DNA of 64,000 nucleotides. Source: Dehalogenimonas sp. THU2 (GTDB taxonomy: Bacteria; Chloroflexota; Dehalococcoidia; Dehalococcoidales; Dehalococcoidaceae). The notes beneath the pieces were generated by a model, which ran no database searches, had not been told where the DNA came from, and worked only from the letters and a program-made list of their open reading frames with translations. Each line of letters begins with the position of its first letter. Within the stretch, counting starts at the first letter, position 1. Both the position numbers and the translations under genes were made by a program. Positions 24,912 to 58,261 of this stretch are shown here, piece after piece. The stretch is taken from the NCBI RefSeq assembly GCF_039749495.1, contig NZ_JBDLLU010000002.1:1-64000 (forward strand). The letters are read 5' to 3'.

Positions 24912-25454
24912 ATGAATTGTCCAAACTGCCAGCAAAATGATTTCAAGGTCGTGGACTCCCGAGAGGTGGAGGACGGCATCCGCCGCCGCCGGGAATGCCT
25001 GGGCTGCGGCCACCGCTTCACCACCTACGAGCGCATCCAGCCCACCGCCGCCTACGTCATCAAGAAGGACGGCCGCCGCGAGGAATGGAGCAAGGACAAG
25101 CTCCTGGCCGGTTTGCACAAGGCCTGTGAAAAGCGCCCGCTGCCGGTGGGGACCGTGGACAAGCTGGCGTATGACATAGAGGCGGAGCTTTTGGAGACCG
25201 GCCGCGCCGAGATCCCCTCCACCGCCGTCGGCGACAAGGTGATGGAGAAACTGAAGGCCATCGACAACATCGCCTACATCCGCTTCGCCTCGGTCTACCG
25301 CAAGTTCACCGATGTTACCGAGTTCAAGGAGATGGTGGATCGGCTCATCGACCGCGACGCGCCCGGCGCCCGCGCCCAACTGCCACTGCTGCTCACCGAC
25401 ACGGAAAAGAAAATCAAACGGAGTAAAGGCCATGACGCCGCAATCATCAGCTAA
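24912..25454 (+). CDS. nrdR: NrdR transcriptional repressor
   Basis: 180 residues. An N-terminal zinc ribbon (CPNC near residue 3 and CLGCGH near 31, with the DNA-contact segment VDSREVEDGIRRRREC) is followed by an ATP-cone domain (about 49-140) that senses ATP/dATP. NrdR represses ribonucleotide reductase genes when dATP is high. The tail beyond residue 145 is longer than in most homologues because the frame runs on over the start of nrdJ; the genes overlap by 23 bases. Two well-spaced NrdR boxes in the promoter support autoregulation together with nrdJ. Confidence 0.95.
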   Translation: MNCPNCQQNDFKVVDSREVEDGIRRRRECLGCGHRFTTYERIQPTAAYVIKKDGRREEWSKDKLLAGLHKACEKRPLPVGTVDKLAYDIEAELLETGRAEIPSTAVGDKVMEKLKAIDNIAYIRFASVYRKFTDVTEFKEMVDRLIDRDAPGARAQLPLLLTDTEKKIKRSKGHDAAIIS

Positions 25455-28260
25455 ACCCATCGTGGACAAGAACCGCATCGCCCAGATCATCTTCAACGAG
25501 GCCTCCGCCATGGGCATCTCCGAACGCGCGCGCGTCGAGGAGATCACCGCCCGGGTCATCGACCGGCTGGAAAAGCCCGTCGCCCTGCCCGGCATGGAGG
25601 CCTTCATGCCCTTAGGCGCCAAGCAGCCCATCGCCGCCACCGAAAACGAGATCGAGGCCCTAGTCAAGGACATCATCGACGACACCCAAAAATCGTCGAC
25701 CGTCGCTGAACCGGCCCAAACCTACGTTCGCCCTGAGCCTGTCGAAGGGTCCTCAACTTCCGTTCGCCCTGCTTGTCCCGATGAAATCGGGGAGCCTGTC
25801 GAAGGGTCCTCAACTTCCGTTCGCCCTGCTTGTCCCGATGAAATCGGGGAGCCTGTCGAAGGGTCTCCCACTCAGTCCACCCCCAAACCCGTTAAAGAGG
25901 AGAAAGCCATGCCCGCAGCCATCAAAACCAGAAAATCGAATAAAAAAGCCGCCATCCCTGAAAAGGTGGAGCTTGCCGATAACGCCCTCGCCGTGCTCAA
26001 AAAGCGCTATTTGAAGAAAGACAAGCAGGGCAACCCCGTCGAGACGCCGGAGGACATGCTCCGCCGCGTCGCCCGCACCGTCGCCGCCGCGGAACTCATC
26101 TACGACACCAACTGCGACGTGCGTGAACTGGAGAACGAGTTCTACGGCCTGATGGCCCGCCTTGAATTCCTGCCCAACTCCCCCACGCTGATGAACGCCG
26201 GCCGTGAGCTGGGCCAGCTTTCCGCCTGCTTCGTGCTGCCCATCGAGGACTCCATCGAGAGCATCTTCGACGCCGTGAAGCACACCGCCATGATCCACAA
26301 GTCCGGCGGCGGCACCGGCTTCTCCTTCTCCCGGCTGCGCCCGGAGTCGGACCGCGTCGGCACCACCGGCGGCGTCGCCTCCGGCCCCATCTCCTTCATG
26401 CGCGCCTTCGACGTGGCCACCGATGTCATCAAGCAGGGCGGCACCCGCCGCGGCGCCAACATGGCCATCCTGTCCATCGACCACCCGGACATCGAGCGCT
26501 TCATCACCGCCAAGCAGCAGGCCGGCGTGCTGACCAACTTCAACCTTTCGGTAGCCATCACTGACAAGTTCATGGAAGCCGTCCGCTCCGGCGCCGATTA
26601 CGATCTGGTCAACCCCCACAACGGCGAGGTTTTCGCCAGCCGGAAGGCGCGGGATATCTTCGACAAGATCGTGAACCTGGCCTGGAAGACGGGGGATCCC
26701 GGCATCGTCTTCATCGACCGCATCAACGCGGAGAATCCCACCCCCCACCTCGGCCGCATCGAGTCCACTAACCCCTGCGGCGAGCAGCCCCTCCTGCCCT
26801 ACGAGTCCTGCAACCTGGGCTCCATCAACCTGTCCCGCATGGTCAAGGGCAATGGCAAGAAGTCTGTCGATTTCGACAAGCTGGGCTATACCATCCGCAC
26901 CGCCGTCCGCTTCCTGGACGACGTCATCGATGTCAACAAGTTCCCCCTCCCCCAGATCGCCGAGCGCACCCGCCAGACGCGCAAGATCGGCCTCGGGGTG
27001 ATGGGCTTCGCCGATCTCCTGATCGACCTCGGCATCCCCTATGACTCACCGGAAGCCCTGGCCACCGCGGAAGCGGTCATGGGATTCGTCCAGTCAGAAT
27101 CGCACAAGGCTTCCGAGGAACTGGCTGCCATTCGCGGCGTCTTCCCCGCCTACGACGGCTCCATTTACGATGGAAAAGTCAGGATGCGCAACGCCTCCTG
27201 CACCACCATCGCCCCCACCGGCACCCTGTCCATCATCGCCGGCTGCTCATCGGGCATCGAGCCGCACTTCGCCTTGTGCTTCACCCGCAACATCATGGAC
27301 AACACCAGGATGATTGAGGTCAACCCCTACTTCGAGCGCGCCGCCAAAACGGACGGTTTCTACTCGGAGGACCTGATGAAGAAGCTGGCCGAGGGCTCCC
27401 ACCTGGAGAGCATGGTGGAAGTCCCGGACGACATTAAAAAACTCTTCGTCACCGCCCACAACATCACCCCAGAAGGCCACGTCAAGATGCAGGCGGTCTT
27501 CCAGAAATACACCGATAACGCCGTCAGTAAGACGGTCAACTTCCCCGCCGACGCCACCGTGCCGGACGTGGAAGGCGTCTATCTCATGGCCTACAAAGAC
27601 GGCCTGAAAGGCATCACCATCTACCGCGACGGCTGCAAGGCCGACCAGCCCATGTCCACCGGCTCCCCAAAATCCGATTCCTCTTCCGTTCGCCCTGAGC
27701 CTGTCGAAGGGTCAAAGATACCCGCAGCCCCCCAGCCCGCCAAACCCCGCAAGCGCTCCAAGGTGACCACCGGCTTCACGGAGAAGGTCAACACCGGCTG
27801 CGGCACCCTTTACATCACCGTCAACTCGGATGACACCGGCGTATGTGAGGTCTTCTCCCACCTGGGCAAAACCGGCGGATGCGCCGCCGCCCAGCTTGAG
27901 AGCACCTGCCGCCTGGCCTCCTTAGCCCTCAGGAGCGGCATAGAACCCGCTTCCGTCGCCAAGCAGCTGAAAGGCATCCGCTGCCCCTCCATCGCCTGGG
28001 ACGGCGGCAAGAGCGTCCTTTCCTGCGCCGACGCCATCGCCACCGTACTGGAGAACTTCCTGACCGCCCGCGAATCACTCGCCACTCGCGACTCGCAACT
28101 CGTGACTCCGCCCGGCGGCAACGGCCACGGGGAAAAGAAGGCCGTCAAAGACCTGGGCTTGGTCAAGAACATCGCTGGTCAGTGCGTGGAATGCGGTAGC
28201 ATCCTGGTCTACCAGGAGGGGTGCTTCATTTGCCCGGGGTGTGGGTTTACGAAGTGCTAG
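25432..28260 (+). CDS. nrdJ: adenosylcobalamin-dependent (class II) ribonucleotide reductase
   Basis: 942 residues from the ATG at 25432, eight bases after a GGAG site; the frame upstream of it lies inside nrdR. After a short N-terminal helical part and a low-complexity insert (about residues 98-150) comes the reductase barrel: LPNSPTLMNAG, SACFVLP with the first redox Cys, IHKSGGGTGFSFSRLRP, NPCGEQPLLPYESCNLGSINLS, and the ATIAPTGTLS-like TTIAPTGTLSIIAGCSSGIEP. A TSCPD domain (TGCGTLYITV and on) and a C-terminal zinc ribbon (CVECG, CFICPGCGFTKC) are typical of NrdJ. It makes deoxynucleotides without oxygen and needs B12, in line with the corrinoid dependence of this organism type. Several dispersed repeats are inserted in frame. 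Confidence 0.95.
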   Translation: MTPQSSAKPIVDKNRIAQIIFNEASAMGISERARVEEITARVIDRLEKPVALPGMEAFMPLGAKQPIAATENEIEALVKDIIDDTQKSSTVAEPAQTYVRPEPVEGSSTSVRPACPDEIGEPVEGSSTSVRPACPDEIGEPVEGSPTQSTPKPVKEEKAMPAAIKTRKSNKKAAIPEKVELADNALAVLKKRYLKKDKQGNPVETPEDMLRRVARTVAAAELIYDTNCDVRELENEFYGLMARLEFLPNSPTLMNAGRELGQLSACFVLPIEDSIESIFDAVKHTAMIHKSGGGTGFSFSRLRPESDRVGTTGGVASGPISFMRAFDVATDVIKQGGTRRGANMAILSIDHPDIERFITAKQQAGVLTNFNLSVAITDKFMEAVRSGADYDLVNPHNGEVFASRKARDIFDKIVNLAWKTGDPGIVFIDRINAENPTPHLGRIESTNPCGEQPLLPYESCNLGSINLSRMVKGNGKKSVDFDKLGYTIRTAVRFLDDVIDVNKFPLPQIAERTRQTRKIGLGVMGFADLLIDLGIPYDSPEALATAEAVMGFVQSESHKASEELAAIRGVFPAYDGSIYDGKVRMRNASCTTIAPTGTLSIIAGCSSGIEPHFALCFTRNIMDNTRMIEVNPYFERAAKTDGFYSEDLMKKLAEGSHLESMVEVPDDIKKLFVTAHNITPEGHVKMQAVFQKYTDNAVSKTVNFPADATVPDVEGVYLMAYKDGLKGITIYRDGCKADQPMSTGSPKSDSSSVRPEPVEGSKIPAAPQPAKPRKRSKVTTGFTEKVNTGCGTLYITVNSDDTGVCEVFSHLGKTGGCAAAQLESTCRLASLALRSGIEPASVAKQLKGIRCPSIAWDGGKSVLSCADAIATVLENFLTARESLATRDSQLVTPPGGNGHGEKKAVKDLGLVKNIAGQCVECGSILVYQEGCFICPGCGFTKC
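25725..25874. repeat. REP-like repeats translated in frame inside nrdJ
   Basis: A 27-base unit with core cctgagcctgtcgaagggtc (25725-25751) is followed by two tandem copies of a 57-base unit (from 25761 and 25818) that contain the hairpin gtcccgatgaaatcgggga. The peptide reads VRPEPVEG and then VRPACPDEIGEPVEG twice. 57 is divisible by three, so copy number can change without a frameshift. Confidence 0.88.
27687..27713. repeat. second REP-like insertion in nrdJ
   Basis: The same 27-base unit as at 25725-25751, again read in frame as VRPEPVEGS. It lies in the linker between the reductase barrel and the TSCPD domain. Confidence 0.88.
28076..28109. repeat. actcgc-aactcg low-complexity insert in nrdJ
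   Basis: Repeated actcgc/actcgtgact units translated as LATRDSQLVTP, in the linker before the C-terminal zinc ribbon. A near-identical peptide (LATRNSRPVTP) occurs in the B12 radical SAM gene at 53444-53477, and the same DNA motif is intergenic at 1431-1461. Confidence 0.75.
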
Positions 28261-29913: not shown

Positions 29914-30040
29914 TTAATACCGCCCCGCCCCACCCAGCTTCTCAACCCAAATCCCCTCCAGCATCTTCAAGTCCTCGATGAACTGCTCCTGGCTCTGGCT
30001 TTCCTTTTTCTCCAGCGTATCCAGCACCTCGAAGGTGAAG
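29914..30040 (-). pseudogene. 3' fragment of a GIY-YIG family gene (copy A)
   Basis: 127 bases nearly identical to the last 42 codons of the intact gene at 47503-47841, differing at two bases near the Gly-rich end and in the stop codon. Translation gives FTFEVLDTLEKKESQSQEQF and the ending EKLGGAGRY. Identity stops abruptly at 30040. The fragment has no start and is not functional. Confidence 0.88.
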
Positions 30041-30101
30041 ACCTCCCCCTCCAATATCAACAACCCTGACTCTTGAGATACTTGTCCTCTATAACTGAGG
30101 A

Positions 30102-43084: not shown

Positions 43085-43114
43085 CAATACTGCTCTTCAA
43101 AATCAGCAACGCCC

Positions 43115-43166
43115 CTAATACCGCCCCGCCCCACCCAGTTTCTCAGCCCAAATACCCTCCAGCGTC
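43115..43166 (-). pseudogene. 3' fragment of the GIY-YIG family gene (copy B)
   Basis: 52 bases encoding TLEGIWAEKLGGAGRY and a stop, matching the last codons of the gene at 47503-47841 with several differences. It is in the same orientation as copies A and C. The rest of the gap 43085-43229 holds no gene. Confidence 0.8.
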
Positions 43167-43229
43167 CACTTATTCATTCGTCAGGGTGTATATGCAAGAC
43201 TTAGGAAAATTTTGCTCGGTATGTGGGTT

Positions 43230-44167
43230 TTACTGAAGTGATTCGACCAGTTGGTCCAATGTCAAATTCTTGGTGATATAACAGCGATAAGCGCTAACCT
43301 GATCGATTCCCCCGGATTGATTAAGGCACCCGCCGGCGCAATGGTAACGACAGAAGCAGTCCCGGCATTCACTGAGGCTATCGATGTTTCTTGATCTCAG
43401 AATAGATTGTGTTTCAGTGTTGAAAATAAAGTGTCCCGTGTCGTTATCATAGCTACCATGGAAAAACAGTCCGGACTGAGGGTCCTGCGGGTTGGTTCTC
43501 ATATAACAGGCAGTGACCATCCCGGCCGGAGTTACGTTAAAGGCGGGATCGGTGGCGTAACAATAGCTTTTTCGAATGGACCCACCGCGAGCACTGCTGA
43601 ACTCGATTCTAAGACCATATTCCTGACCCAACTTCTTTACTGATCTGAATGCCACCAGGAAACGGTCGGCATCCAGGATATCAAGCCCCTCTCCCCTACC
43701 ATTTTGATAAAATGGCTCAAGGTAAATCGCCTCAAAACCTGCTCGACCGGCCAGAACGTTTATTATGCCGGGAAAGTATTGAAGGCTGTCTGCGGTAACC
43801 GTGGATAATATCCAATACTTTTTGCCGATTTTATCGAGATAATCAAACGTTCTCAGGACGTCTTCGTAACTTCCCTGTCCGTTACGCTTCGGTCTGTGTT
43901 TGTCATGAATTTCTTTTGGGCCGTCCCAGGAGATGCAGAACTCATCCACATGTTCAGCCAGCCAGCCTAATCGTTGTTGTGAGAAAACTCCGTTAGTGGT
44001 AATGCCGATGTACTTTTCAATGCCTTCCAGTTTTACTCTGGATTCGAAGTACTCGACGGTTGTCTGTACCATAGACCAGGCACAGGTCGGTTCGCCGCCG
44101 CCATGGAACTGCAGATGGGCCATGGAATGACCTTCGGAGGCATTTTTGATGATAAAATCTATTGCAG
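43230..44167 (-). pseudogene. radical SAM/SPASM protein, 3' part (interrupted by IS21-family element)
   Basis: Holds codons 135-444 of a 444-residue protein: AIDFIIKN, FHGGGEPT of the radical SAM barrel, ITTNGVFS, CISWDGPKEIHDKHRP, and a C-terminal SPASM domain with the Cys series YCYAT, ACYM, CRDCFCRYHCAGGC and RCY, ligands for auxiliary 4Fe-4S clusters. It lacks the N-terminal CxxxCxxC that binds the SAM cluster, which is on the other side of the insertion at 46829-47230. Joining at the duplicated target (44162 after 46829) restores an open frame reading ARAAIDFII. SPASM proteins of this sort modify ribosomally made peptides or activate sulfatases. Confidence 0.88.
44163..44167. repeat. target-site duplication of the IS element
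   Basis: tgcag here and at 46829-46833 flank the element exactly; one copy belongs to the original gene. Confidence 0.85.
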
Positions 44168-44304
44168 TGCGGATTTCGGTGAAGTTGGCCACCCATTTCG
44201 CTCCAAATTGGCCACGAGCACGGTGAAATTGGCCGGGTGGATCTGAGGGCGGGCGACGCTGGGATCGGTGGTTAGTTTAGCTTATGCGGAACAAAGTTTT
44301 CAAT

Positions 44305-45078
44305 TCACTGCTTTCCTCCTCTCTCCGCGGATGATTCTGCATGGTTAGCGGCCTCCTGCCTACGGCGCATGGAATCGCCCTTGAGAGTAAGCCGGTAAGC
44401 ATTGTGCAGCAGCCTGTCGCAGATGGCGTCGGCCATGGTGGGATCGCCGATCGCCGGGTGCCAGTCAGAGACAGGACATTGGCTGGCCACGACGGTGGCG
44501 CCGGCGTCGTAGCGGGCTTCGATGATTTCCAGCAGGTCGCGGCGCTCAGAGTCCACCAGAGAAGTGAGCAGAAAATCATCGACGATGAGCAGTTGCACCC
44601 TCGATAGCTTGTCCAGCAGCCTGAGGTGGGAGCCGTCGCCTCGCGCCTGTTGAAGGCTCTCGAAAAGCCTTGGCGCCCGGGTGTAAAACACGGTGTAACC
44701 GGCTCTAGCGGCTGAGTTACCCAAGGCGCAGGCGATGAAAGACTTGCCGACACCGGTCGGCCCGGTGACCATCACATTTCGGCGGGCATCCAGCCATTGG
44801 GTGGTCGCCAGGTCCAGCATCACCTGCTTGGAGAGGCCCCTGGTGTGGGTGTAGTCGATATCTTCCAGTGTCGCCGGCTGCCGCAGTTTGGCATTCTTTA
44901 AAAGGCGCGTCAGACGCTGGTTATCGCGATAGGTCTGTTCGTCCTGGATCAAGAGGCCGACGAAGTCGGCGTGAGAGAGTTCGGCATGAGCGGTCCCGGC
45001 CAGGCGCTCACTCAGTCCCCTGGCCATGCCGAAAAGCTTGAGCGAGTTCATGATGGCGATGGTTTGTTCGTTGAGCAT
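44305..45078 (-). CDS. istB: IS21-family helper ATPase IstB
   Basis: 257 residues from the ATG at 45078 (MLNEQTIAIM), 13 bases after istA ends; the longer frame runs back into istA. The AAA+ core is complete: Walker A GPTGVGKSFIACAL near 105, Walker B LLIVDDFLLT near 165, and the DnaC-like C-terminus. IstB oligomerises on DNA and directs target choice for IstA. Confidence 0.93.
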   Translation of the reverse strand: MLNEQTIAIMNSLKLFGMARGLSERLAGTAHAELSHADFVGLLIQDEQTYRDNQRLTRLLKNAKLRQPATLEDIDYTHTRGLSKQVMLDLATTQWLDARRNVMVTGPTGVGKSFIACALGNSAARAGYTVFYTRAPRLFESLQQARGDGSHLRLLDKLSRVQLLIVDDFLLTSLVDSERRDLLEIIEARYDAGATVVASQCPVSDWHPAIGDPTMADAICDRLLHNAYRLTLKGDSMRRRQEAANHAESSAERGGKQ

Positions 45079-45091
45079 GAGTGCTTCCCTT

Positions 45092-46642
45092 CTAGTTGTA
45101 GAATTCGGGTCCCCTGATGTTGTCGTGAAGCGGTAAAGTCGCATGCCGCCGTTCCAGCTTCGGCTCCGATCGGGAGTCCAGTCCCGAAGCCAAGATGGAG
45201 CATACCGACCTGTAGGTGCAGGTGTTGTATTCAAGCGCTCTTCTCGCCGCGGCTTCGACGCGGGATGGCTCATACTGCCGGGTCAGTCTCATGATGCCCA
45301 TGCAGGCGCGATAAGACTGCTCGGGGTAGGTGCGGGACAAGAGTATCTTCTCCACCAGTTGGGCGGTGGCCGCCCCGGTCTTGCCTGCCCACTGGATGAA
45401 GCGCGACGGGCTCCACTCGGCATACTGGCGGTGCGACGGCGGCATGTGATCTCTTAGCGTTGAAGGCTGGCCCCGGACACAAGAGCGGGCATGTGCGGCT
45501 ACTCGTTCGCCCTTATGCAGCACCTCGATGGTGCTTACCGTCAGCCGGACGTCCAGTCTTTCACGCAGCAATTGGAAAGGCACGCTATAGAAGTGCCCGT
45601 CCACCTCGATATGGTAGTCGATGTTCACCCTGGCCTTGCGCCATTCGGCGTACTCGTAGGCTTTCGGCGGTAGAGGCAGGGCACTCGGCCGGTCGAGTGC
45701 TTCGAAGAGTTCATTTCGTGACTTCCCCATCCGGCGCATGGTGCGGGCGTTGATTCGCTCCAGGCACTCGCGGATGGCGGAGTTGAGCTCGGAGAGGCTG
45801 TAGAAGGTGCGTTCCCTTAGCACCGCCAGTATCCAGCGCTGGGCTACCAGCACGCCGCCTTCCACCTTGGCCTTGTCTCGAGGACTCCGCGGGCGCGCCG
45901 GCAGGACGGCGCAGCCGTAGTGCTCGGCCATCTCGGCGTAGGTCGGGTTAATCTCCGGCTCGTAGAAGCAGGCTTTGCTGACGCCGCTCTTGAGATTGTC
46001 CGGTACCAGCATCCGGGGCACACAGCCGAAAAACTCGAAAGCGCGCACGTGGGATCCGATCCAATTCGGTAGCGTCTGGCTGAGCGTTGCCTCGGCGTAG
46101 GTGTGGTTGGAGGCGCCCCAGACGGCGACGAAGAGCTGGGTGGGGAGGAGTTCGCCGGTGGCCAGGTCGACGACGGAGTGGCCGCTTGAGTAGTCGATGA
46201 ACAGCTTCTCTCCGGCCCGGTGCTCCTGGCGCATGCAGAAATCGAGCTTGCCGCGCCAGCGGCGATAGTACTCGCAGAATTGGGTGTACTGGTAGCCGTC
46301 ACTGTGCTTTTCTTTGTATTCCAGCCATAGCTGGATCAGCGTCAGATTGACGTTCTTGTAGCCACGCAGTTGGTTATAGATGTACTCGCAGTCCGGCGGC
46401 GGCCGCGCCGCCGCAGACGCCGGGACAATGACCGGGAAAAGCCGAGCCTGGATCTCGGTCTCAGTGATCTCGGCCGCCCCAGCCCAATCCAGACCGGCGA
46501 CGGTGGCGCGCCTGAGATAGTTCCCTACTGTGCTTCGGGTGACGTTGCAGCTGCGGGCGATCTCGCGTTCGCTGAGACCGCACACATATCTTAAACGCAG
46601 GACTTCTTTTATCTTACGCATGGGCAACCTCTTGTTCGGCAT
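45092..46642 (-). CDS. istA: IS21-family transposase IstA
   Basis: 516 residues. An N-terminal helix-turn-helix (LSEREIARSCNVTRSTVGNYL, about 18-38) is followed by an RNase H-fold integrase core with the first Asp in LFIDYSSGHSVVD (about 149), the second in LVPDNLKSGV (about 211) and Glu in DKAKVEGGV (about 247), then the Mu-transposase C-terminal beta domain (about 320-380). The DDE triad is intact. Confidence 0.94.
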   Translation of the reverse strand: MPNKRLPMRKIKEVLRLRYVCGLSEREIARSCNVTRSTVGNYLRRATVAGLDWAGAAEITETEIQARLFPVIVPASAAARPPPDCEYIYNQLRGYKNVNLTLIQLWLEYKEKHSDGYQYTQFCEYYRRWRGKLDFCMRQEHRAGEKLFIDYSSGHSVVDLATGELLPTQLFVAVWGASNHTYAEATLSQTLPNWIGSHVRAFEFFGCVPRMLVPDNLKSGVSKACFYEPEINPTYAEMAEHYGCAVLPARPRSPRDKAKVEGGVLVAQRWILAVLRERTFYSLSELNSAIRECLERINARTMRRMGKSRNELFEALDRPSALPLPPKAYEYAEWRKARVNIDYHIEVDGHFYSVPFQLLRERLDVRLTVSTIEVLHKGERVAAHARSCVRGQPSTLRDHMPPSHRQYAEWSPSRFIQWAGKTGAATAQLVEKILLSRTYPEQSYRACMGIMRLTRQYEPSRVEAAARRALEYNTCTYRSVCSILASGLDSRSEPKLERRHATLPLHDNIRGPEFYN

Positions 46643-46828
46643 AGAACCTCTTTTTCCAGAGATTCTATGGCTTTCGTTGCCCCAGCGTCGCTTTACCCCG
46701 TGATGGTTACCTGGATTTCAGGTGCCCTTCTCCACCTCGGCCATTTTACTCCGTGACGGTGGCCAAGTTAGTCCGACAGGGTGGCCAAGTTGCTCCGAAA
46801 CGCTGGCCACTTTGCTCCGAAATACGCA

Positions 46829-47230
46829 TGCAGCACGGGCAACGGGCTCACTCATGGTTTGGGGTACATCGTTGTTATGGGAATAACAGTACACGCAATT
46901 TAGATTACAAACGTCCGTAAGAAGCAGACCCACTCGCGTAGGTCGATACTCTGTTGGTTCTTGAACATCGGGACTGCCCGGTACCGGCCCTGAGGTTAAT
47001 AAACCTAGAATTGACAATGAATTGATGAATTTTCGGTCCGCGGAAGTTCTGGGGACAAAACCCTCTTCGTTGAGAGCTTTCATAATAGGAATTGCAGCCT
47101 GATTCAGGCTCAAGACCCGATGATTCTTAGGAAAATAGGCTAATTGCAGATTATTATGCTCAAGCAAAAAGCACTTCTCAACAAAACAACTCGCGCTTTG
47201 CCTGATAGACAAAGTTTTCATAAAAGACAT
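46829..47230 (-). pseudogene. radical SAM/SPASM protein, 5' part with RRE-like domain
   Basis: Codons 1-134 of the interrupted gene. Residues about 18-80 resemble a PqqD-like RiPP recognition element: beta strands (LEHNNLQLAYFPKNHRVLSL), helix LNQAAIPIMKALNEEG, then FINSLSILGLL. Then comes VGLLLTDVCNLNCVYCYSHN, the CxxxCxxC loop for the SAM cluster (about 107-114). At SEPVARAA the IS begins. Without the insertion the gene would be one 444-residue maturase. It starts 81 bases after a 38-codon ORF that looks like its peptide substrate. Confidence 0.85.
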
Positions 47231-47311
47231 CTAAATTCGATTAGAAACGGGAGCTACCTAAAACAGGCGCTCAAATAAATTTGTCTTGGGTATCTTCACG
47301 CCACCTTAAAA

Positions 47312-47428
47312 TCAAGGGCCTGAAGTAGCTATGCCTTTTGGGTTGATCCCGGATTTCTTCACCGGACCAGCCTTGATTACAGCCGGCTTTACGACTGGTT
47401 TAACTGGTTTTACGGGTTTCTTTTCCAT
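47312..47428 (-). CDS. 38-residue Lys/Pro/Val-rich peptide, candidate RiPP precursor
   Basis: An ATG behind a strong GGAGG site at six-base spacing opens a 38-codon frame ending in TGA. The peptide begins MEKKPVKPVKPVVKPAVIK, so it has Val-Lys-Pro repeats, and ends KSGINPKGIATSGP. It has no Cys, aromatic residue or signal peptide. A TATAAT lies 30 bases upstream. It is 81 bases before a radical SAM/SPASM gene with a fused RRE-like domain on the same strand; small ORFs in this position are usually maturase substrates. No known RiPP class was recognised, and the modification cannot be predicted. Confidence 0.65.
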   Translation of the reverse strand: MEKKPVKPVKPVVKPAVIKAGPVKKSGINPKGIATSGP

Positions 47429-47457
47429 ATCAAACCTCCAGATTCGGTCTCATGCCA

Positions 47458-47463
47458 ATTATA
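47458..47463 (-). promoter_or_regulatory. -10 element of the candidate RiPP operon
   Basis: TATAAT on the minus strand, 30 bases before the precursor ATG. The -35 region is weak. The region between this site and the GIY-YIG gene stop is only about 40 bases. Confidence 0.5.
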
Positions 47464-47502
47464 CTCTTCCACTTAAAACGAAGCCACATGTGACCATCCC
47501 CA

Positions 47503-47841
47503 CTAATACCGCCCCATCCCACCCAGCTTCTCAACCCAAATCCCCTCCAGCATCTTCAAGTCCTCGATGAACTGCTCCTGGCTCTGGCTTTCCTTTTTCT
47601 CCAGCGTATCCAGCACCTCGAAGGTGAAGGCGGCGGCGCCGGATTCCTGCCAGTCTTTCCGCATCTTGTAGTCGAAGGGATTATTGGTAGTCACCGAGAA
47701 ATTGAAGGCGTTTTGCCTGGCCTGGATGTCCGCGGCGGAGTCCAGCAGGTAGCGGCCGCTTGTGGTATTGGTCACCTTGAAGACGCCGCCGGTAATCTTG
47801 CGCTGCTTGTAGGCGTTGATGAGGTCTTTTCTGTTATCCAT
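47503..47841 (-). CDS. GIY-YIG nuclease family protein (intact copy C)
   Basis: 112 residues beginning MDNRKDLINAYKQRKITGGVFKVTN, which corresponds to the short family annotated as GIY-YIG-like in Firmicutes and Chloroflexi: a GVFxVxNxxxGRYLLDSA core, a NPFDYKMRKDWQESG middle and the ending IWVEKLGGMGRY. The classic GIY and YIG triplets are degenerate, so nuclease activity is uncertain. Two fragments of its 3' end lie at 29914-30040 and 43115-43166 in the same orientation, as if this gene's end had served as an integration site. Confidence 0.78.
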   Translation of the reverse strand: MDNRKDLINAYKQRKITGGVFKVTNTTSGRYLLDSAADIQARQNAFNFSVTTNNPFDYKMRKDWQESGAAAFTFEVLDTLEKKESQSQEQFIEDLKMLEGIWVEKLGGMGRY

Positions 47842-48151
47842 CGGGTTCCAAACTCCGTTTTCACCGTTTCAGAGATGATAGCACTCCCACTGAATAATCC
47901 CAATTATGAGCCTCGATAGCGAGCGTCGCATCGCCGCTGTAAACGACTGAGAAGTGTTGTCGAACGTCAAGCCCCAAAAATTGGAGCTCTCCTCCAAAAA
48001 ATGGTACAATCCATAAGCTCGGAAAACAGATAGTACCGCTAGTACCGCGCCGGGCTCGGGTTTCTCACCGGTCTCCGTCAATTCTCTGAACAGACAGGCC
48101 GCATTCGTGCCTGACCTGCGGCCAATTTTCTACAGCAAGGATTCTATAACT

Positions 48152-49477
48152 ATGCAATATAAAGCCTACTCGCTCCACAACTTCAAGACCATCCCCCAGG
48201 TCCAGAAGCTGTCCGCGGAGCAGATACGGGATATCGAGATCGTCGGCTCGGTTCTGCCCTTCAGAACCAACAATTACGTCATCGACGAACTGATTGATTG
48301 GAACGCCGTCCCCGACGACCCGATGTTCATCGCCACCTTTCCGCAGAAAGCCATGCTGGCCCCGGCCGATTACCGGCTGATGCGGGATCTCCATGACAGT
48401 GGCGCGGATTCCCAGGCCATCCAGGACGCCGTGCGCAAGATCCGGCTGCGTCTCAACCCCCACCCCGCCGGGCAGCAGGAATTTAATACCCCCGTCATGG
48501 ACGGCGAGACGTTGCAGGGGCTCCAGCACAAGTACCGGGAGACGGTGCTGTTCTTCCCGGGACAAGGCCAGGTCTGCCACGCCTATTGCACCTTCTGCTT
48601 CCGCTGGCCGCAGTTCACCAAGATGGAAGAGCTCAAGATATCTTCCTGCGAGGTGGAATCCCTGGTGAGCTACCTGGCCGCGCATCCGGAGGTTACCGAC
48701 GTCCTTTTCACCGGCGGCGATCCCATGACCATGAAGGCTCTTGTCATGGCGCGATATATCGAAGCGCTGTTGGTGCCGGAACTGGCGCATATCCGCACCA
48801 TCCGCATCGGTTCCCGGTCTTTGACCTTCTGGCCCTACCGTTTCGTGACCGATCCCGACGCCGCCGAGATGCTGGATCTCTTCCGCAAGGTCCGCGCGGC
48901 TGGGAAACACCTGTCGTTCATGGCCCATTTCAATCACCCGGTGGAACTGGAACCGGAGATCGTCCGGGACGCCATCCGGCGCATCCAGGAAACCGGCGCG
49001 GTCATCAGGACCCAGTCGCCGCTCTTGAAACACATCAACGATGCGCCCGAAATCTGGGCGGAACTGTGGCGCAGGCAGGTTGCCCTGAACTGCGTGCCCT
49101 ATTACATGTTCATCGCCCGGGACACCGGGGCGCAGCGCTATTTTTCGGTGCCGCTGGTCAGGGCCTGGGAGATCTACCGGCAGGCGTTCCAGTCGGTCTC
49201 AGGTATCTGCCGGACCGCCGGAGGCCCCAGCATGTCCGCCTTCCCGGGCAAGGTCCAGGTCCTCGGCGTCGCCGAGGTCGCCGGTGAGAAGGTGTTCGTC
49301 CTCCGCATGGTCCAGGGCAGGGACCCCGACTGGGCCGCCCGCCCCTTCTTTGCCGCCTACGACGAACGCGCCACCTGGTTCGACGACCTCAAACCGGCCT
49401 TCGGCAAGAAGGAGTTCTTCTTCGAGGAAGAACTCCAGGTGCTGCTGACCCCCGGCGAGTACGAGGGCTGTTTCTAG
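48152..49477 (+). CDS. KamA-family radical SAM protein (lysine 2,3-aminomutase-like)
   Basis: 441 residues from the ATG at 48152, ten bases after AAGGA; a GTG at 48107 has no site. The SAM-cluster loop is CHAYCTFCFRWPQF near residue 146, followed by DVLFTGGDPMTM, the glycine-rich SAM contact, and AHFNHPVEL. Lysine 2,3-aminomutase and its relatives use PLP and SAM to shift amino groups. This protein is longer than KamA at the C-terminus, and its C-terminal part (from about 360) looks different, so the substrate could differ. It stands alone on the plus strand. Confidence 0.87.
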   Translation: MQYKAYSLHNFKTIPQVQKLSAEQIRDIEIVGSVLPFRTNNYVIDELIDWNAVPDDPMFIATFPQKAMLAPADYRLMRDLHDSGADSQAIQDAVRKIRLRLNPHPAGQQEFNTPVMDGETLQGLQHKYRETVLFFPGQGQVCHAYCTFCFRWPQFTKMEELKISSCEVESLVSYLAAHPEVTDVLFTGGDPMTMKALVMARYIEALLVPELAHIRTIRIGSRSLTFWPYRFVTDPDAAEMLDLFRKVRAAGKHLSFMAHFNHPVELEPEIVRDAIRRIQETGAVIRTQSPLLKHINDAPEIWAELWRRQVALNCVPYYMFIARDTGAQRYFSVPLVRAWEIYRQAFQSVSGICRTAGGPSMSAFPGKVQVLGVAEVAGEKVFVLRMVQGRDPDWAARPFFAAYDERATWFDDLKPAFGKKEFFFEEELQVLLTPGEYEGCF

Positions 49478-56854: not shown

Positions 56855-58261
56855 TTACCACATATACTTGCCGGCGCCAAAAATGGTGTCACCTTTATAC
56901 GTCGCAAGATCCTTCGTCCACCAAGCTTCCATCTCTTCCGCAGATTTGACTTTACCATAACCAAAGGCCCGATCCATTGTGGCAAAAAATCCATTAAATA
57001 CCCCGGTAACTGATGCGGTTGCCCGTACCACGGGATGGATTATGGCCTCTGAAGGATGGTTGAAAGGACAAGTCGGTTGACAGATACCGCAGTTGACGGG
57101 AGCGCCAAAACCAGAGCAAGTATCCCAGTTCATCCAGAAAGCCTTGATACCAGGATTACTCCTGAGAACTTTAGGTTCCCAACTGGGTTCATCACTCATA
57201 TCAATGGATTGACTCGGGCAAACCTCGCCGCACCTTTTGCAAGTTTGGCAGAAACGATGCCCACCAAAATCAATCGGCTTGGTTGGCGCCAATGGCATGT
57301 CAGTAATGGCTGAATTGGCATACCGGCTTTCCAGTCCCCAACCAGGACTCATGCGATAATTTGGCCTGGCCTGCTCAGAAATGCCAGCAAATATTCCATA
57401 TGCCGTATTTTGTGAAGGCATTGACCCGCCTGGTCGTAACGTCATATACCCTAGACCTTTGACGAAAGATGTCGCCATCGCCCGGGTAAATTTAGCAGTG
57501 TTGTATCCAATCGAATCCATGCGCCCAATCGGAACCGAAGAACCATATCCCGATGGATTAGTCGGATCTGCTGAATAGTTGTAGGTACTCTGGACCTGTG
57601 GCTGCTGGGTTTCCCAGACGATCATCCATTTGCATTTGTTAGGAATACGGTAGACCTTACCGTCCTGTACGGCATCGTCCCGATCCTCCCATGATATTAA
57701 GTCTTTATTGAATAGCTTCTTCATGTTATCGGTTATTTCAATAACACCGACCGCAGCTGTTCCAAAAGAATGGAAGGCTGCTCTGAGTACTTGCAGATTA
57801 TATTCTGGAGATTCATTATAGGGCGATGTTACATCAGTAGCCGACGGTTTCCAAAAACTGGTCTCACCATCCCAGGCCGGATCAGTGCCACCACGACCTG
57901 AGGCACTATACCAGGCTAAACCACGACGGTCATAACCAGGAAGTTTGCCTGCCAGACCATCAGCTTTGTCTTTCGCGACCCTTGCAGCAGTGGCATCTTT
58001 GACTTCTTGAGCTACAGGGACGGGAACATGCACGCTTGTGTCATAGTTTTGATAGACTTTCCAGTCTACCTCTGTGGTTATGTTTTCGTAATCACGTTCT
58101 TTAATCCACCATGCTTTTTTCTCCTGGTAAGAGCCGGCTACCTCATCTAAATCATGGAATATAGGTGAAGCGGCAGCAGCTGCACCTATACCAGCACCAG
58201 CTAGACCCAGACCCTTCATAAAATCTCTGCGGCTAAGGGTAGAATGGAATGTGTTTTTCAT
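56855..58261 (-). CDS. rdhA: reductive dehalogenase catalytic subunit
   Basis: 468 residues. The Tat signal LSRRDFMKGLGLAGAG (about 9-24) directs folded export. The cobalamin-binding core is about 160-320. Two ferredoxin-type clusters follow: CQTCKRCGEVCP (about 337-348) and CGICQPTCP (about 391-399), the second with an upstream Cys in DTCSGFGAP. RdhA enzymes use B12 to remove halogen from organic compounds as terminal reductases of respiration; the substrate cannot be read from sequence. No rdhB membrane-anchor gene is adjacent on either side, as seen for some Dehalogenimonas rdhA genes. A promoter with an adjacent inverted repeat is visible upstream. Confidence 0.95.
   Translation of the reverse strand: MKNTFHSTLSRRDFMKGLGLAGAGIGAAAAASPIFHDLDEVAGSYQEKKAWWIKERDYENITTEVDWKVYQNYDTSVHVPVPVAQEVKDATAARVAKDKADGLAGKLPGYDRRGLAWYSASGRGGTDPAWDGETSFWKPSATDVTSPYNESPEYNLQVLRAAFHSFGTAAVGVIEITDNMKKLFNKDLISWEDRDDAVQDGKVYRIPNKCKWMIVWETQQPQVQSTYNYSADPTNPSGYGSSVPIGRMDSIGYNTAKFTRAMATSFVKGLGYMTLRPGGSMPSQNTAYGIFAGISEQARPNYRMSPGWGLESRYANSAITDMPLAPTKPIDFGGHRFCQTCKRCGEVCPSQSIDMSDEPSWEPKVLRSNPGIKAFWMNWDTCSGFGAPVNCGICQPTCPFNHPSEAIIHPVVRATASVTGVFNGFFATMDRAFGYGKVKSAEEMEAWWTKDLATYKGDTIFGAGKYMW

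Follow-up and report, generated by a model that had tools for sequence, protein, structure and literature searches.

Loci of two or three genes that produce ribosomally synthesized and post-translationally modified peptides (RiPPs) with a radical S-adenosylmethionine (SAM) enzyme are common, and protease and exporter genes are optional in the two-gene ones (PMC9062424). In CteB, a thioether-forming maturase of the SCIFF type (TIGR03974), the leader binds the RiPP recognition element (RRE) as a beta strand (PMC8326336). The radical SAM/SPASM enzyme TvgB turns the Val of TVGG repeats into cyclopropylglycine by joining its gamma carbons, and carbon-oxygen bonds (rotapeptide) and epimerisation are also cited as radical SAM outcomes (PMC9062424). 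For Dehalogenimonas, one genome-mining study of anaerobes listed only a putative head-to-tail cyclised peptide (PMC4289311). Here we describe a locus in Dehalogenimonas sp. THU2, found in the first 64,000 nucleotides of contig NZ_JBDLLU010000002.1 (the window), in which a gene for a 38-residue peptide lies directly upstream of a gene for a radical SAM/SPASM enzyme. We conclude that the two probably form a minimal, lineage-specific RiPP-type cassette, with the peptide as substrate and the putatively RRE-fused enzyme as its maturase.

Results

The cassette comprises the following parts.

43204-47490, minus strand: cassette common to three genomes, IS21 element excluded, delimited by similarity to L048 9102-10830 and L049 9061-10784
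47312-47428, minus strand: 38-aa Lys/Pro/Val-rich peptide, candidate RiPP precursor (89-92% identity in two relatives, dN/dS)
47429-47490, minus strand: peptide upstream region with GGAGG and TATAAT, within the block common to three genomes (alignments with two relatives)
46829-47230, minus strand: N-terminal part of the maturase, with the putative RRE-like domain and CxxxCxxC (C108, C112, C115), joined residues 1-134
43230-44167, minus strand: C-terminal part of the maturase, with the remainder of the radical SAM barrel and the SPASM domain (C335, C353, C400, C403, C405, C409, C413, C428)
L048 10615-10731 and L049 10570-10686, minus strand: peptide homologues in the relatives, 89-92% identical and of equal length

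The sequence-only reading of the window had proposed a CxxxCxxC motif and, once an insertion sequence (IS) is removed, a SPASM cysteine set. Both were borne out. Joining 46829-47230 and 43230-44162 gives a single stop-free frame of 444 amino acids, and the radical SAM cysteines C108, C112 and C115 are invariant in six aligned proteins, namely the window enzyme with its counterparts in two congeneric genomes (together the trio) and three distant homologues. In the same six proteins the SPASM pattern C..GX4C - CX2CX5CX3C - C is complete, with C335, G348/C353, C400, C403, C409, C413 and C428 invariant. The Pfam Radical_SAM model matched the joined maturase with an E value of 7e-13, and the SPASM model scored 15.8, under its cut-off of 21.5. 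Judged by its cysteines, the SPASM pattern is canonical, as in proteins with two auxiliary clusters. Whole-genome searches recovered intact maturase genes in two of the seven other genus genomes, G083 (86% identity) and G135 (84%), and the ratio of nonsynonymous to synonymous divergence (dN/dS) among the three genomes was 0.13-0.16.

We compared the enzyme with described systems. It is closest to the SCIFF maturases, both among PDB sequences (CteB, 5wgg, E 1.8e-26) and among NCBIfam models (SCIFF maturase, E 1.6e-36; PapB, E 3.7e-36), and with CteB it would share an N-terminal RRE-like domain, a radical SAM domain and SPASM with matching cysteines. However, both NCBIfam matches lie far below the curated cut-offs (126 against 425 for TIGR03974), and since no NCBIfam model reaches its own cut-off on the maturase, the clade has no name there. 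Ranthipeptide and sactipeptide systems (SCIFF, PapB) also differ in their substrates, which supply a Cys for the thioether that is not present in the three peptides here. The TvgA/TvgB system (poly-cyclopropylglycine) likewise uses a radical SAM/SPASM enzyme, whose targets are Val residues of a repetitive, Val-rich peptide (PMC9062424). Its locus, however, comprises five genes and encodes a TVGG motif, whereas the peptide here has no TVG. Rotapeptide (aliphatic ether) and epimerase systems resemble the pair as radical SAM peptide modification that involves neither Cys nor an aromatic cross-link; no common precursor motif was recognised, and the epimerases have another domain make-up (PMC8326336). 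A viperin-type defence role was rejected, because the PADLOC pVip match (E 1.7e-9) spans the shared radical SAM core only.

Modelled from an alignment with three distant relatives, residues 1-134 of the window enzyme formed strands followed by two helices, at low confidence (mean pLDDT 58). Foldseek matches of this model had E values above 0.2. Of 935 re-aligned chains, the nine that ranked highest were recognition-element proteins without exception (TigE, lasso-peptide B1 proteins, McbB and CteB; Z 4.1-4.8). The first of these, TigE (Z 4.8), is likewise a radical SAM/SPASM protein, but its sequence relation to the maturase is weak (8vpo, E 6e-6). Such low Z values are no proof on their own; because the nine top rows are uniformly recognition elements, they suggest, at low confidence, that the maturase N-terminus may be RRE-like.

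The peptide MEKKPVKPVKPVVKPAVIKAGPVKKSGINPKGIATSGP, translated from 47312-47428, contains VKP/IKP units and has neither Cys nor aromatic residues. As claimed from the sequence, its open reading frame (ORF) is preceded by a GGAGG site (6 nt before the ATG) and, further upstream, by TATAAT; alignments show that both elements are kept in both relatives. A sigma-70 scan upstream of the peptide gene reported no promoter, and no -35 hexamer was recognisable there. The proposed 81 bases between peptide stop and maturase start were also confirmed (47231-47311, same strand). In each of the two relatives, whole-genome searches found a peptide of the same length (89% and 92% identical) directly upstream of the maturase, so the pair is colinear and similarly spaced in both of these genomes as well. 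The three peptides vary at just 4 of 38 positions (V9I, G27E, I33A/Y and S36A/G). Cys is absent from all of them; the G135 peptide has one Tyr, at position 33, and the other two versions have no aromatic residue.

Within the peptide coding part, third codon positions account for 15 of the 21 variable alignment columns (P ~4e-4), and dN/dS among the three genomes was 0.10-0.15. A chance ORF is ruled out by this codon-level conservation, together with the colinear and similarly spaced pair in two other genomes. On comparative evidence, the ORF is a real gene under purifying selection as strong as that on the enzyme. Within the genus, the outcomes that the sequence-only reading had named as refuting the ORF thus did not occur. 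Matches of 38-39% in five genomes (E 0.06-0.19), considered as possible paralogous peptides, were not reproduced by local search and were treated as composition noise.

In the window, the maturase gene is split by an insertion.

44168-46828, minus strand: IS21-family element splitting the maturase, with TGCAG target duplication and IstA/IstB
45092-46642, minus strand: IstA transposase of the IS21 element (NF033546, E 3e-82)
44305-45273, minus strand: IstB helper ATPase of the IS21 element (NF038214, E 4.7e-74)

The 5-bp target duplication TGCAG stands at 44163-44167 and 46829-46833. No other full copy of the element is present in the genome; another contig carries a shorter relative that has both ends. 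Because IS21 cuts the maturase, the peptide-enzyme pair should not be functional in this genome, and the peptide is presumably left unmodified in this strain. The proposal of a peptide-modification pair thus holds in that both genes are coding and co-conserved, and fails for this particular genome, where the maturase is disrupted.

The block common to the three genomes is ~1.6-1.7 kb long and consists of the peptide gene, the maturase gene and the upstream region only. The genes around it change from genome to genome: the window has regulators together with GIY-YIG-like and KamA-like genes, G083 has a HicB gene, and G135 has a gene that by eye looks MazG-like. Across the eight genus genomes searched, the cassette was intact in two, IS-split in one, reduced to a remnant in one and absent from four. 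The remnant, in G124, encodes 49 maturase residues (53% identity); it sits beside an IS transposase and, like the G083 cassette, upstream of a HicB gene.

L050 8842-8988, in G124: decayed maturase fragment (aa 318-366)

Silent-site divergence (dS) of the maturase between the window and G083/G135 was 0.51/0.63, compared to 1.26/1.88 for aroB and 0.69/0.96 for nrdJ, and maturase GC was 0.46 against 0.54 for the window. The different genomic places, the silent-site divergence below that of the two housekeeping genes compared and the decay in a fourth genome make transfer within the genus the simplest reading of this distribution; the cassette seems to be mobile among members of the genus and to be lost often. 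Within the cassette there is no integrase or other transfer gene, and an Rfam search over the locus found no structured RNA. Viral and plasmid carriers were considered and rejected: no maturase relatives occurred in viral contigs, and plasmid matches were distant, at about 28% identity or less.

No clean empty insertion site was recovered; the KamA-like gene is present in four relatives, where among the window's other tested neighbours only a GIY-like gene adjoins it (G200). This KamA-type (lysine 2,3-aminomutase-like) radical SAM gene, at 48107-49477, adjoins the cassette in the window. We do not count it as part of the cassette, because its 63-69% identical copies in the four relatives have no cassette beside them. 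The 3' end of the small GIY-YIG homing-endonuclease-like gene (47503-47841) is found again on the far side of the cassette, in a 60-nt direct repeat (85%) at 43107-43166 and 47495-47554, so that in this genome the cassette is flanked by direct repeats. A longer fragment of the same 3' end lies at 29917-30075. About 9 kb from the cassette is a reductive-dehalogenase-like gene (56855-58261; twin-arginine leader, 4Fe-4S double cluster), and such genes also occur near the cassette or remnant in G083 and G124. Elsewhere in the window, 25312-28260 encodes what we take to be a vitamin B12-type ribonucleotide reductase-like protein; it has two to ten matches per genus genome, most of which are around 600 aa long and share 50-59% identity with the window copy.

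A tree built from 46 related proteins united the trio with full support, as a clade with a long stem. This clade falls inside a group with 97/96 support that also holds enzymes of other Chloroflexota, of an Acidobacteria metagenome-assembled genome (MAG) and of two plasmids (Methylocystis and Edwardsiella), the nearest sampled relatives of the trio. These share about 27-30% identity with the trio, have candidate substrates that contain Cys and mostly lie in larger loci. In several Chloroflexota and the Acidobacteria MAG, the candidate substrates near the enzyme end in PCGSPxPxGAxCxCNC; the candidate is a Cys-rich 128-mer for the Methylocystis plasmid relative and a 59-mer containing CC for that of Edwardsiella. 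No Lys/Pro/Val peptide lies beside maturase homologues at 30% identity or less. The expectation of a similar ORF upstream of homologous maturases is therefore correct for two genomes of the same genus and not for these distant homologues. Since the distant relatives' visible candidates contain Cys and none is of the Lys/Pro/Val type, the trio clade probably switched substrate, with the enzyme-substrate link in the distant loci read from position.

We also observed that proteins ending in PCG(S/A)P(I/L)PxGA(V/I)CxCNC, often with HYWYPN and some with WD40 repeats, adjoin one or several radical SAM genes. They possibly form a family with modified Cys-rich tails.

L032 9320-10666; L033 7070-7867; L034 4982-5863; L062 7672-10195; L065 2796-3032; L068 199-1257: PCG(S/A)P..-tailed proteins (Chloroflexota, Acidobacteria MAG)

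Discussion

The RiPP-type reading of the pair follows from the co-conservation of peptide and enzyme, the coding constraint, the kinship of the maturase, the RRE-like structural matches and the SPASM pattern. From these we infer the substrate role of the 38-aa peptide and its division into leader and core. In the proposed mechanism, the N-terminal RRE would bind the N-terminal part of the peptide (KKPVKPxKP), which would probably add a beta strand to it, as the leader does in CteB. A 5'-deoxyadenosyl radical, made at the radical SAM cluster, would then remove hydrogen from the peptide's C-terminal part, with the electron passing to the SPASM clusters. The likeliest outcome would be a change at an unactivated Val/Ile C-H, as with TvgB, or another aliphatic C-C or C-O bond. 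Because the cassette holds no protease or exporter, the product would have to be finished by host functions.

The sequence-only reading had held that the peptide's composition fits none of the known classes. This goes too far, given that TvgB acts on Val (PMC9062424). What the composition removes is a thioether on the 38-aa peptide, excluded by the lack of Cys in all three versions, and an aromatic cyclophane, whose exclusion is not absolute: two versions have no aromatics and that of G135 has one Tyr. An aliphatic target is precedented, because TvgB joins Val gamma carbons. By this analogy a Val/Ile change ranks first among the possible chemistries, although we regard it as doubtful in its own right and the kind of bond as a guess.

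Several points weigh against a RiPP-type pair. The RRE model has low confidence, with a mean pLDDT of 58 and Z below 5. Of the PqqD-like region originally proposed, an RRE-type fold may stand at that confidence, but Pfam models found no PqqD domain in the maturase; in the full-length model of the relative L033, the N-terminus had a pLDDT under 50, too poor for use there. No leader protease, exporter or immunity gene occurs in the shared block, and the three genomes have no common flanking gene. The only three available peptide sequences are too similar to tell leader from core. In addition, the visible candidate substrates of the distant relatives contain Cys.

These candidate substrates also bear on an alternative that we consider unlikely, namely that the enzyme targets a peptide or protein encoded elsewhere and that the 38-aa ORF is a co-travelling adaptor, regulator or unrelated small basic protein. 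Variation at four of 38 positions is less than in many core peptides, and the richness in K and P would be suited to binding nucleic acids or the ribosome. Yet the shared block holds two genes only and its surroundings differ, which leaves no other common neighbour as substrate, and the enzyme appears to bear an RRE-like domain for a peptide. Epimerisation of the peptide (L to D at Val/Ile) in place of cross-linking or rearrangement seems quite improbable. Val and Ile, in which the peptide is rich, are the residues epimerised in epipeptides and PlpA-type proteusins (PMC8326336). We rank it below a Val/Ile change because the known epimerases have another architecture (PMC8326336), whereas the enzyme here combines an N-terminal RRE-like domain with a full SPASM. 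The disruption by IS21 in the window, the 49-residue remnant in G124 and the absence from four of eight genus genomes could also fit a cassette in decay, selfish or neutral, that has no function now and is kept by recent transfer only. This we find very hard to credit, as dN/dS of 0.10-0.16 in both genes over dS of 0.4-0.8 points to long selection for function.

The pair thus remains best explained as a RiPP-type cassette. A bolder version, in which this RRE-SPASM clade left Cys chemistry and installs an unreported Val/Ile/Lys/Pro modification on a cationic, proline-rich 38-mer, carried by a mobile two-gene cassette of organohalide-respiring bacteria, is a tentative proposal that we think could well be wrong. 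What appears to be new here is a ~1.6-kb pair at unrelated places in three genomes, decayed in a fourth. The relatives whose visible candidate substrates contain Cys offer a way to study how enzymes of this kind shift from one chemistry to another. Should the pair work, it would be the smallest possible test bed, one peptide and one enzyme, for radical chemistry on a substrate that has no Cys, no Trp and, in two of the three versions, no Tyr, and its product would be a peptide natural product from the Dehalococcoidia.
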